A DNA stretch of 64,000 nucleotides from Candidatus Bathyarchaeota archaeon. Lineage in GTDB: Archaea > Thermoproteota > Bathyarchaeia > 40CM-2-53-6 > DTGE01. Made by a program: the position numbers and the translations under genes. Within the stretch, counting starts at the first letter, position 1, and every line of letters starts with the position of its first letter. Location: positions 1-64,000 of the forward strand of contig JAGTRC010000006.1 in NCBI GenBank assembly GCA_018396725.1, given 5' to 3'. Below the pieces are notes generated by a model. It saw only the letters and a list, made by a program, of their open reading frames with translations. It was not told the origin of the DNA and did not search any database. Below, in pieces: positions 2,522 to 7,411 of this stretch.

Positions 2522-2726
2522 ATGAATTATTACGTGAGTTACGTGAGCCCAGTGATCATGTCATCGGATTGGTTAATTAGCCCCTGTTTCCGTCATCGAT
2601 AATGGTTAAGCAGCCAAATTGCCCTTAGATAAGAGCGTTGCGGCTGGACCTTTATCAAAATATAGGATGAATAAAGTAAAGGATTTAAGGGGGGCGTGGA
2701 GCGCTCTCTTGATCTCCGGTAAGTGA

Positions 2727-3567
2727 AGCACCGCCCGAGTATTTGGCTGGGAGCCAACCATACATCCTAATGTCAAGGAATTATTTGAATTGATGAAGAA
2801 ACACAACATCAAAGGATCACTAATTACCAATGGACTGTTCGATAGAAATTTTCTAGAGATACTTGATTCAGAAGTTATCGCTCATGTTCAAATAAGCTAT
2901 AATGACTCTAATCAAAGGGGTGTTTGGGAGGAAAATTTGAAAAGATTGAAAGGGATTATGCCAAATATTTGTTTGAGGTTCAACATAGGATCGCTTGATG
3001 ATTCATATGAAGATGTTTTGAATGTGGCCAAAAATATAAAATAAACGAGCTCAGCTTTTCTTTAATGGCTCCTAACCCTCATGAGAACAATGTGTATATT
3101 CCATTCAAAGACTTGTTCAAGTTTTCCAAATACATAACAGATCTGATAAACGATGCCAAAGATTCAGGAATAAAGAAATTCCATGCTGGTGTATGTCTGC
3201 CGTTGTGCATATTTGATAAAAAACTAGGAGTTTTTTAATAAGCAATGTGAAATTTTCTGGTATCTGTTCTGCCGGTGCTATGGAGATGATAATTAATCCT
3301 GATCTTTCTTCTTTCCCCTGTCCAATAATGACTTTGCTAGGATCCAAGGATAGTATTGATATTCCATTTAATAAACTTAGAGAATTGTACGGTCCTATTA
3401 TAAACAGGATGAGATGACAGCTGCTGGCAAAAGAAGAATGTGAAAAATGTGTTTATTATCTAAGGAAGAGATGCCAGGGTGGCTGTTTAATCTACAAGTT
3501 TTTGAATCATAAAGAAGAAATTAACCAACTCCATAAAAAACAACTGAAAAGTATCAATAAGGATTAA
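2727..3567 (+). pseudogene. Decayed radical SAM/SPASM peptide-modifying enzyme
   Basis: Four blocks in shifting frames reconstruct the middle and C-terminal parts of a radical SAM/SPASM protein. The first (2727-3044) has GWEPTIHPNVKELF, matching the GGEPT motif, then SLITNGLF. The second (about 3040-3239) encodes APNPHENNVYIPF and an LPLC motif. The third (about 3234-3417) has GICSAGAMEMIINPDLSS and SFPC. The fourth (about 3426-3567) has CEKC, a six-residue gap and CQGGC, the terminal SPASM cysteines. The N-terminal CxxxCxxC motif is missing and at least three frameshifts separate the blocks, so the gene is dead unless the sequence is badly in error. SPASM enzymes typically modify ribosomal peptides; a peptide gene follows 52 bases downstream. 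Confidence 0.75.
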
Positions 3568-3581
3568 TAAGAATAATAAAG

Positions 3582-3589
3582 TTTAAATA
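3582..3589 (+). promoter_or_regulatory. TATA box of the peptide gene
   Basis: TTTAAATA lies 30 bases ahead of the ATG at 3620 in a very AT-rich stretch. That spacing suggests a nearly leaderless transcript, normal in archaea. Confidence 0.5.
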
Positions 3590-3619
3590 AGTCCAAATCA
3601 AAATTAATTATTAGATAGA

Positions 3620-4062
3620 ATGCTGCCTAAATTCAAAAAACACATCAGGGATTTCCTCGTAGGTGAAGAAGGTAAGATCTCCAAGAAGTCCGTAGTAGTT
3701 GGTTCAATAGTTCTCGGTGCAGTCGCAGCTAGCGTTGGACAGAAGGCAGCCGCCTTTACCTACACAACGAGCACTACCTCTGCTCCATGCGTAAACACTA
3801 CCTCGGCAGCACCACTTCTATCACGACATCAACTACTTCTACAACTACTGCACCCTGTGTTAGTACCACTTCTGGTCCCACCACTTCTAATCCCTGTGTT
3901 AATAGTTGTGTGTTTCCTTGTGTTCATAGTCCGCCCAACCCATGTGCTGGATGTGTTAGTGCTGGCACGACCGCTGGAACTACGTCTGGTACAACTGGTC
4001 AGTCTATAACAGAAATAGAATATAGAGATGGGAAAATAATTGGAAGGCACCGTATACGATAA
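3620..4062 (+). pseudogene. Thr/Cys-rich RiPP-like precursor peptide gene with one frameshift
   Basis: The first frame encodes a basic and then hydrophobic leader (FLVGEEGKISKKSVVVGSIV, residues 12-31) that ends in Ala-rich sequence and enters TYTTSTTSAPCVNTTS. About 3805-3820 the theme continues only in the -1 frame, as a run of Thr/Ser punctuated by TAPCVSTTSG, SNPCVNSCVFPCVHS and PNPCAGCVSAG, closing with the basic tail IIGRHRIR. The repaired product is about 146 aa with seven cysteines, all in the C-terminal core. Leader plus cysteine-repeat core beside a SPASM enzyme is the usual form of a thioether-type RiPP precursor. I do not recognise a named family. The frameshift may be decay or a sequence error; no clear slippery site is seen. 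Confidence 0.5.
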
Positions 4063-4072
4063 GCATTAAATC

Positions 4073-4891
4073 CTAATCTGGATATTGTGGATCGTTGTCT
4101 TTTGTCCACCAAGACAAAGATGAGGGGTCAGTTATATCTCTATAAGGATCTATACGAGATTTTCCAAAACCTCCGAATTGGAAATGTAAATGAGCATATG
4201 GTCCAGTCAGTTTCCCTGTATTGCCAGAAAGTCCTATCATATCTCCCCTCTTTAACTTGGTGCCTTCCTCCACTTTTCTTGAATTTAAATGACAATATAT
4301 TGTGAGTCGTTGGTCGAAGTGCTGAATAGTAATTCGATGACCATCATCATTATCATATTTACTTTCCACAACTTTTCCAGAAGCTGCTGACAAAATTTCT
4401 GTGTTTTGTCTTAGGAAAAAGTCTGTGCCTAAATGGTTATCATAGGTTTGGAATGAAGCTTGGATTCCCATCCAATCTTTTACTACTCCACGTCGCATAT
4501 CTACATCGACGTAACTCCTATGTCGCGTCTCTACAGTACGACTAGAAAACGGGAGTGTCAAATATCCTTCCATCAGTCCAACATCAAACTTTTGCGGCTT
4601 ATCCCTAGCAACAACATCATACCCTTTACTGATCTGTCTCACTTCTGCTGCAGATGTGCACATGTGCCTGAATTTCTTGTCCGCGGCTATGTCCAATCTG
4701 TACGGTCCGTCCTTTGCGTCCAGTCCATATTTGCCGTAATTATCGGTCTTAGTCTCGCATACGACTCTGTTAGATCTGTCCTTTAACAGAACGGTAGCGT
4801 TTGCGATGAACGGCTCCCCTGGGTTTACTGTCCCATTACCGTTGTAGTCGAAGAAGAGCTGTCCGTGAAGAGGGTAGAGGTCGTACTCGGT
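4073..4891 (-). pseudogene. 5'-truncated M23 family metallopeptidase with an SdrD-like B domain
   Basis: The open frame runs from 4891 to a stop at 4073, but its N-terminal 65 codons contain no ATG, GTG or TTG, so the gene start is lost. Those codons encode FFDYNGNGTVNPGEPF and TKTDNYGKYGLD, the pattern of the SdrD/Cna-B-like beta-sandwich of surface proteins. The C-terminal half is an M23 (LytM) peptidase: NHLGTDFF gives the first zinc ligands, and HLHFQF the HxH motif. M23 enzymes cut glycyl bonds in peptidoglycan or proteins outside the cell. A surface-type M23 protein is unexpected in an archaeon without murein. The truncation point lies next to duplicated tRNA-Leu sequence, and base composition is AT-rich, both suggesting transfer. 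Confidence 0.7.
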
Positions 4892-4905
4892 TTATTTTAC
4901 TTTTA

Positions 4906-4943
4906 CCATTTTACCGCACCATTTTACCGGTAAAATGGTGCGG
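4906..4943. repeat. Inverted and direct duplication of the tRNA-Leu 3' end (att-like scar)
   Basis: Positions 4914-4943 are a perfect 30-base palindrome made of the tRNA 3' terminal GCACCATTTTACC region and its inverse. CCATTTTACCG also occurs as a direct repeat at 4906-4916 and 4919-4929. The repeats include the last bases of the tRNA gene and its CCA. Integrases of archaeal elements often use tRNA 3' ends, so this is read as a rearranged attachment site; a terminator hairpin is an alternative. Confidence 0.5.
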
Positions 4944-5066
4944 GGGGTGGGATTCGAACCCACGAACCCCTTCGGGACAGGCGCCTCTTGCCAGCCTCTC
5001 CTCCTTATCCTTGTCCTCGTCGAGTCCTACAGGCCTGCGCCTTTGACCTGGCTTGGCAACCCCCGC
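4936..5066 (-). tRNA. tRNA-Leu (GAG anticodon) with a 43-base intron
   Basis: The acceptor stem is GCGGGGG (5066-5060) with CCCCCGC and an encoded CCA at 4938-4936. The T-arm GTGGG-TTCGAAT-CCCAC, a 14-base variable arm and the D-arm GCCAAGCCAGGTCAAAGGC are typical of archaeal tRNA-Leu. The anticodon stem CAGGC/GCCTG is interrupted. Removing 5030-4988 (43 bases) restores the loop CT-GAG-GC, a Leu anticodon. The intron then lies between positions 33 and 34 (one base either way is equivalent), not at the usual 37/38. Splicing at 37/38 would instead give a GTA anticodon, incompatible with the long variable arm. The mature tRNA is 88 bases with CCA. Confidence 0.85.
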
Positions 5067-5638: not shown

Positions 5639-7411
5639 CTATTTGTGGGCGTAGTAGAGGTGTATGGATTCCCCGTCTATCCCGTCGACCCGGGCGAACC
5701 CGAACCGTACGAGTTGAACCGTCTCGTCCACCCTGGCCTCGAGCAGGGCCCTCTCACCCTTACCCTTGGAGGTGTGGGCGGAGGGCATGGTGACCGCCGC
5801 TTCCACGCATTCTTCAGGGTTGACCCATTGGATTATGGGTATGCCCCGCTCCCTAGCCTCTTCATGTCCCCTGCCCTCATAGGAGGCGTATGCTTCGCCG
5901 GGGCCGGCTCCCATGTAACGGGCGTTGAGCAGCCCCATCAGCCTGAAATGCTCCGAATCCTCTATGAGGCTTAGGTCGCTCCCCGCTATGAGGAGCCTGA
6001 TGGATCCGTCGGCTCCAGGCTTCACATGGATGGTCCTGGATCCCATCTCCGGATGGCTCGGATGATAGGGTATCTTAGCCTCCAAGCCTCCGGGCGCACC
6101 CTCCACGACCAAGTGTATGGGATCCTCCACGTAGAGGTACCTCTTGGAGGATGGCTCCAGGATCCTCCTGTTGTAGGCGTAGATGTTCTCCCAGCTTATC
6201 GTGGCGTCCACGGGTCTAGGCCCTATCTCCATTATGAGCTGCCTCAGGGCTTGGGGGGATATCCCCCTCCTCCTCAAGGCTTTAAGGGTCGCCAGCCTCG
6301 GGTCGTCGAACCCTGAAACCTCCCCTGACTCCACTTTCCTGAGGATCGTGGACTTGCTCAGGTCGGCGTCCAACATCCTCAGCCGGCCGTAATGCATGGT
6401 CTCAGGATACCTCCATCCGAAGTGATGGTAGAGGTACCTCTGCCTCACCGTGTTGGTGAGGTGCTCCTTACCCCTTATGATGTGGGTCACGGATAGGAGG
6501 TGGTCGTCTACGCCGCACGCGAAGTTGTATAGGGGCCACACCCTATACCTTCCCCCAACCCTGGGGTGGGGATGCCTCTCGGGATCTATTATCCTGAGGG
6601 CGGGCCAATCCCTCACGGCCGGGTTGGGATGGTTCAGCTCCGTCTTAACCCTCAGGACGGCCTCCCCCTCCCCGAACTCCCCGTTGAGCATGAGATGCCA
6701 CCTCTCCTCCTGGACGCTCCTCGGGAGGTCCCTGCAGGGGCATGGGAGGCCCCTCGAGACCCTAGACTTGAAGTACTCCCCGTCGCAGGTGCATACGTAG
6801 CCTCCCCCGAGGGCTAGGAGCCTAGCCGCATACTCGTAGTATATGGGGATCCTGTCGCTCTGGATGTACTCCTCATCCCACCTGCAGCTGAGCCATTCCA
6901 AATCCTCCCTTATGGCCTGGTAGAACTCCAGGGAGGCTTTCTTCAACCTGGGATCCGTATCCTCGAACCTCAGGATGAACCTTCCATCGTACATCCTAGC
7001 GTATTCATGGGATAGTATTATGGCCCTGAGGGAGCCCAGGTGGAGCACGCAGTCCGGGTTCGGGGAGAAACGGGTCGTAACCCTCCCGTAGCTGTAGGCG
7101 CTGGGGAGCGGCGGCAGCATCCTCTCCCCCTCCCTCTCCCTCCCCCGCGTCTCGGGCTCCCCGGCGCCTAGCAGGTGGGGATACCTCGCCTTGAGCTCCC
7201 TCTCCTGCTCCCCGAGGGGTTTAGCGTTCACCTCCTCGATCACACCCTCGACTATCCGGATGAGATCCTTCACCCTATCCCTGAGCGCGGGGTCCTCGGC
7301 GAGCAGCTTGGCCAGCACGGGTTTAAGCTCAGCCTTCCCCCCGTGCCGGACCGCGTTGGCCAGAGCGTATCCCCTGACGGCCTCGACTATATCCGGTTCT
7401 CCTCCAGGCAA
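5639..7411 (-). CDS. gltX: Glutamyl-tRNA synthetase, archaeal type
   Basis: 590 aa, TTG start at 7411 preceded by GGAGGGGAGGGGG. The N-terminal extension of about 100 residues with YALANAVRHGGKAE is characteristic of archaeal and eukaryotic GluRS. The class I catalytic core has the HIGH-like PNPDCVLHLGSLR and FEDTDPR near residues 115-155, a zinc-knuckle-like pair CTC and CPC around 210-230, and the KMSKS equivalent LSKSTI. The C-terminal third is the beta-barrel anticodon-binding region rather than the bacterial alpha-helical cage. Archaeal enzymes charge tRNA-Glu and often tRNA-Gln when GatDE is present. It is last of three co-directional genes after the lipid reductase and DUF2070. Confidence 0.95.
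   Translation of the reverse strand: MPGGEPDIVEAVRGYALANAVRHGGKAELKPVLAKLLAEDPALRDRVKDLIRIVEGVIEEVNAKPLGEQERELKARYPHLLGAGEPETRGREREGERMLPPLPSAYSYGRVTTRFSPNPDCVLHLGSLRAIILSHEYARMYDGRFILRFEDTDPRLKKASLEFYQAIREDLEWLSCRWDEEYIQSDRIPIYYEYAARLLALGGGYVCTCDGEYFKSRVSRGLPCPCRDLPRSVQEERWHLMLNGEFGEGEAVLRVKTELNHPNPAVRDWPALRIIDPERHPHPRVGGRYRVWPLYNFACGVDDHLLSVTHIIRGKEHLTNTVRQRYLYHHFGWRYPETMHYGRLRMLDADLSKSTILRKVESGEVSGFDDPRLATLKALRRRGISPQALRQLIMEIGPRPVDATISWENIYAYNRRILEPSSKRYLYVEDPIHLVVEGAPGGLEAKIPYHPSHPEMGSRTIHVKPGADGSIRLLIAGSDLSLIEDSEHFRLMGLLNARYMGAGPGEAYASYEGRGHEEARERGIPIIQWVNPEECVEAAVTMPSAHTSKGKGERALLEARVDETVQLVRFGFARVDGIDGESIHLYYAHK

Follow-up and report, generated by a model that had tools for sequence, protein, structure and literature searches.

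The low-GC block at positions 2745-4900 of the window, the term used here for the whole 64-kb stretch of archaeal DNA analysed, raises the question of what system its gene debris once encoded and whence it came. The GC content of the block is 0.394, compared to 0.554 for the window as a whole, and it holds three damaged genes, coding for a radical SAM/SPASM maturase, a peptide precursor and an M23 peptidase. With a probability of roughly 0.85, this island represents a decayed His-Xaa-Ser-type (HXS) RiPP cassette, in which a precursor with an HXS leader and a Thr/Ser/Cys core is accompanied by a nonfunctional accessory SPASM maturase and a truncated M23 peptidase, and it looks foreign. The following features were identified:

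2676-2744, plus strand: uncertain, possibly what is left of the maturase N-terminus, containing an in-frame stop (tblastn with the L100 radical SAM protein)
2745-3059, plus strand: maturase piece 1, from GWEPTIHPN, lacking CxxxCxxC (tblastn with the L187 radical SAM protein: 2739-3032, frame 3)
3029-3253, plus strand: maturase piece 2, in a different frame (tblastn with the L187 protein: 3029-3223, frame 2)
3217-3564, plus strand: maturase piece 3, in a third frame, with the SPASM cysteines CEKC...CQGGC (tblastn with the L187 protein: 3220-3498, frame 1)
3582-3589, plus strand: TATA-like TTTAAATA preceding the peptide gene, weak given its very AT-rich surroundings
3620-3736, plus strand: HXS-type precursor leader MLPKFKKHIRDFLVGEEGKISKKSVVVGSIVLGAVAASV (NF038309 and leader profiles)
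3737-4062, plus strand: Thr-Thr-Ser/Pro-Cys core with seven Cys and one frameshift, its second part in the frame of ORF 3787-4062
4073-4890, minus strand: 5'-truncated SdrD_B-like and M23 peptidase gene (Pfam M23 3.7e-22, SdrD_B 2.5e-8)
4914-4943, no strand: perfect palindrome at the island edge, overlapping the 3' end of the tRNA gene
4939-5066, minus strand: tRNA gene, probably intron-bearing (128 bases; Rfam RF00005, 42.8 bits)

The island stops at the 3' end of the tRNA gene, an edge which, like the adjacent M23 gene, did not figure in the original prediction made for this DNA. No duplicated insertion sites were found around the island. A viral island was considered and rejected, with no viral genes seen within it. 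Just upstream, at 1870-2521, the window encodes an AbrB/MazE-type antitoxin and a PIN-domain (VapC-like) toxin as a pair.

The peptide gene (3620-4062) contains PCV units, seven cysteines and a single frameshift near 3790-3830, much as had been predicted, while its supposed TATA box can be matched to the TATA-like element at 3582 only as weak evidence. The NCBIfam HxsA3 model NF038309 matches residues 2-32 of the peptide with an E-value of 1.1e-5, at 25 bits against a curated cut-off of 65. A degenerate DNA pattern encoding F-hydrophobic-xx-EEG-x-I-x-[KR]-K, in which only F, EEG, I and K were fixed and the LPKxKK part, repeats and neighbouring genes were not demanded, was used to survey leaders across ~85,000 species genomes. 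Clear leaders of the HXS type made up 32 of the 68 loci recovered; the single viral match to the pattern is not a leader. These leaders start with LPKxKKxIxxFLxxEEGxIxKK, are nearly all accompanied by His-Xaa-Ser repeats (e.g. SHGSHGSHG) and occur in Patescibacteria, Elusimicrobia, Omnitrophota, DPANN archaea and other taxa, and the window leader aligns with them without gaps. An HMM of 32 other leaders, built without the window peptide and that of G028, a genome from the order of the window, detects the window leader with an E-value of 3.7e-14 as its sole match in the six-frame translated 64-kb window. The leader profile A2, which contains the window row, matches it at 6.9e-17. Judged from these alignments, the window leader is a member of the HXS family, far beyond chance. 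The HXS system is already known from NCBIfam models and from Haft and Basu, as cited in PMC9062424, and the family is little-studied.

HXS-type precursors carry a hydrophobic stretch and an Ala-rich site after the leader and, by sequence, look like exported proteins. The leader, hydrophobic stretch and Ala-rich site of the window peptide likewise resemble an export signal, and Thr/Ser-rich cores such as its own are a typical feature of glycosylated surface proteins in archaea. The peptide could accordingly be read as an ordinary secreted Thr/Ser-rich surface protein, O-glycosylated and disulfide-bonded, next to which the radical SAM debris lies by coincidence. Such a reading is very unlikely, as the leader can be assigned specifically to the HXS type, and the debris is of the same kind as the radical SAM gene following a Thr-Thr-Ser peptide in the genome G629. 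The original prediction had proposed looking for leader homologues beside radical SAM genes, and a homologue of the radical SAM enzyme HxsB does occur in 28 of the 32 leader loci when partial genes at the ends of loci are included. HxsB scores above its cut-off in L100 and L102, and also in L187. Because of this HxsB linkage, a secreted surface protein and nothing more was rejected. An exported or surface-like appearance would in any case not be exclusive of a RiPP, given that HXS-type precursors appear exported too.

The proposal that the reading frames upstream of the peptide are radical SAM/SPASM debris, clearly broken, held up throughout. The three overlapping maturase pieces lie in three frames and all match one protein. 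Since the window's own pieces, read through, served as the query for that match, tblastn with the intact L187 radical SAM protein provides the independent test, and it aligns in frames 3, 2 and 1 in succession, collinear with the window gene. Over 2745-3564 the reading frame changes at least twice and is interrupted by one in-frame stop (a TGA within piece 3, its last base at 3417), and the CxxxCxxC cluster motif is missing, the N-terminal part being lost; the motif is intact as CNLSCPYC in the relative L187:5710-6657. The L100 radical SAM protein aligns weakly to 2676-2906 (frame 3, E=1e-7), and the GC content of the uncertain remnant at 2676-2744 exceeds that of the rest of the maturase gene. 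A Radical_SAM match (2.5e-4), a SPASM match slightly below its cut-off (2.4e-5) and a weak match of piece 3 to the SPASM model TIGR04085 indicate that the radical SAM fold and SPASM cysteines are retained, and by these similarities the window maturase is a pseudogene of the radical SAM/SPASM family. It has no match to HxsB (TIGR03978) and falls below the cut-off of every maturase family model, those for sactipeptides and ranthipeptides included. Sactipeptide and ranthipeptide systems, in which SPASM enzymes form Cys thioether links, resemble the window in that a SPASM enzyme adjoins a Cys-containing precursor, but differ in that the window maturase is not captured by their models. The L187 radical SAM protein itself scores 59.5 bits against a PapB cut-off of 340.

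The best relative of the maturase is the radical SAM protein encoded directly after the Thr-Thr-Ser peptide in G629, a member of the DPANN phylum Aenigmatarchaeota (32% identity over the preserved length, E=1e-31), so that an intact SPASM gene does stand next to a peptide homologue, as the original prediction had suggested checking. The next is encoded directly after HxsA in L100 (25% identity, E=8e-18). Weaker relatives occur in several members of the window's own class; the SPASM proteins recovered by searches of the phylum and class were all distant, and the flanks read contained no HXS leader. In the maturase tree, all relatives fall in one supported group, within which the nearest neighbour is not separable from the own-class SPASM proteins. 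Searches of plasmids and viral contigs gave no relative of the maturase or the leader.

The core of the window peptide, which reads TTSTTSAPCVNTTS...TTTAPCVSTTS..., includes 12 Thr-Thr-x triplets and no His-Xaa-Ser repeats. The prediction of a RiPP system was right in kind, as leader and maturase match intact HXS-family sets. Its core was described as unrecognised, and it is indeed not of the His-Xaa-Ser type; it can now be placed among relatives. When 156 genomes of Aenigmatarchaeota, the phylum of L135, were searched with the leader profile, seven contained leaders, and HXS-leader peptides with Thr-Thr-Ser runs are encoded in four genomes of this phylum. In G629 the leader is followed by HSSSTN and a long TTS run, and the G639 peptide belongs to this type as well, its core containing masked bases and a change of frame. 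The G688 peptide combines TTS runs with a Cys-rich middle and a C-terminal TTSAPPCMVF, while that of G608 contains HTSSTN, two Hint domains and TTSTTVSTTISTTATTGGC. On sequence grounds, the window core fits best in this Aenigmatarchaeota Thr-Thr-Ser group, which is not a named family. The leader and Thr-Thr-Ser runs are shared with the group as a whole, the Cys-rich core with G688 and a window-type radical SAM gene after the peptide with G629. Unlike the window peptide, the Aenigmatarchaeota peptides are longer, some with C-terminal or Hint domains, and several of their loci have HxsB, HxsD and an A24 peptidase gene. The gene order also differs, with the radical SAM gene preceding the peptide in the window and following it in G629 and L100. 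Thr-Thr-Ser/Cys cores on an HXS leader find no mention in the titles and abstracts covered, a coverage outside which most subscription journals lie; this combination is considered new, the HXS system itself being known.

Other HXS-leader precursors show further C-terminal features. Those of L083, L099, L125 and L187 share a domain after the repeats that starts with CPFxxVWNGxxxxLENNxLP and has no Pfam match in L187. Two Hint/intein-like domains are recognised by Pfam in the precursor at L192:9061-10371 (minus strand), and one at the C-terminus of that at L189:9814-10524 (plus strand) by eye. Self-processing would be unusual in a RiPP precursor.

Compared to the known HXS system (HxsA/HxsA3, HxsB TIGR03978, HxsC and HxsD TIGR03976), the window shares the precursor leader, the adjacency of a SPASM radical SAM gene and an exported-looking repetitive core, but has a Thr-Thr-Ser/Pro-Cys core, a maturase other than HxsB and only decayed genes. 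No HxsB was identified on the island, and no ORF there matches HxsC or HxsD, for which there is no room. When the whole genome was searched for SPASM domains, two other proteins emerged, recognised by that domain and not by comparison with TIGR03978 itself. Intact relatives of the window genes sit within loci with HxsB and HxsD, as in G629, where HxsD, HxsB, the peptide and the radical SAM gene lie within ~5 kb. Counted against an HXS cassette are the HxsA3 score below cut-off, the missing His-Xaa-Ser repeats, the lack of HxsB and HxsD on the island, the differing gene order, a maturase tree that leaves the nearest neighbour unresolved and an M23 link drawn from one DPANN locus.

The latter link concerns the gene convergent with the peptide gene and 11 bases from it. 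Its open frame from 4890 contains no ATG, GTG or TTG before the TTG at 4696, which lies inside the protein. A relative is encoded in L192, ~4 kb from the G608 peptide (31% identity, E=4e-35), and aligns to the last residue. Phage and plasmid M23 matches span at most ~65% of the window protein, and viral contigs provide no match to it. This truncation also bears on whether the locus is decayed at all. The source genome is a draft assembly of 32 contigs, repetitive cores assemble badly and the G639 relative has its own masked bases and frame change in the core; the frameshift in the window peptide may be a sequencing or assembly error. That the peptide, and perhaps the maturase, are intact in the organism and all breaks are such errors is nevertheless extremely unlikely, since many independent errors would be required: the maturase lacks its N-terminal part, its frame changes and stop do not fall within repeats, and truncation affects the M23 gene as well.

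As to the origin of the decayed cassette, leader searches of 398 genomes of the phylum, with the window peptide and NF038309 as queries, gave real matches only in the window genome and G028, the other matches inspected being due to chance. Of the 171 genomes sampled from the window's class, two have the leader. Because of this scarcity, the low GC content and the tRNA edge, the cassette was probably acquired horizontally. G028 codes for an HXS leader, an 18-Cys core and HSSSTN, and none of the HXS partner genes queried was found at its contig ends, the peptide being an orphan at a contig end. The HXS-leader Cys-rich peptide in this genome of the same order, together with the distant maturase relatives in several class members, could instead reflect old vertical loss, whereby a system formerly present in the class disappeared from nearly all of its members. 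This course is unlikely, though it deserves consideration; the rarity of the leader, the low GC and the tRNA-edge position all speak against it, as do the closest maturase and M23 kin found so far, which occur in Aenigmatarchaeota. Under horizontal acquisition, these nearest kin would point to a DPANN donor. Gene exchange between DPANN and TACK archaea, with which the window's phylum Thermoproteota would be grouped, has been reported, with stress on transfer from TACK to Aenigmatarchaeota (PMC8407114), so that we infer the DPANN-to-window direction.

In intact relatives, HxsB and the second SPASM radical SAM enzyme would recognise the basic leader LPKxKKxIxxFLxxEEGxIxKK and then modify residues of the repetitive core, the type of modification being conjectural, after which the hydrophobic stretch following the leader would export the product from the cell. 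A divergent A24 (type IV prepilin) peptidase-like gene lies near HxsD/HxsB in DPANN HXS loci, including L089, L102, L186, L189, L191, L193 and the following:

L187:798-1940, minus strand: A24-like gene
L188:10330-11469, plus strand: A24-like gene
L192:13320-14348, plus strand: A24-like gene

The A24-like enzyme is a possible leader peptidase or exporter partner and, in the archaeal loci where it stands beside HxsD/HxsB, may process the leader. As the window maturase lacks the cluster motif and no HxsB was identified, the window system is taken to be dead, with the modified product not made.

The HXS system takes its name from its repeat. Thr-Thr-Ser/Cys cores behind the same leader distinguish leader recognition from core chemistry, and sets such as that of G629 provide small archaeal test cases. 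The island further suggests that a RiPP cassette has moved between a larger archaeon and members of DPANN. In a broader and rather doubtful extension, HXS-type leaders in DPANN archaea might also support another class of products, built on Thr-Thr-Ser/Cys cores, with HxsB and a second SPASM enzyme carrying out the modification and a linked A24-type leader peptidase assisting export. On this view the cassette might have moved between DPANN cells and a larger archaeal partner, which would hint at a function in contacts between symbiont and host.

A YydG-epimerase-like radical SAM gene was also observed near two Thr-Thr-Ser-type peptides (L192:6911-8410 and L188:3116-4606, both on the minus strand). 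Directly after the HxsA gene in L125, at 7150-7400, lies the remnant of a small, apparently internally deleted SPASM enzyme, the C-terminal piece of which is similar to the window maturase, representing a second case of decay for this enzyme.
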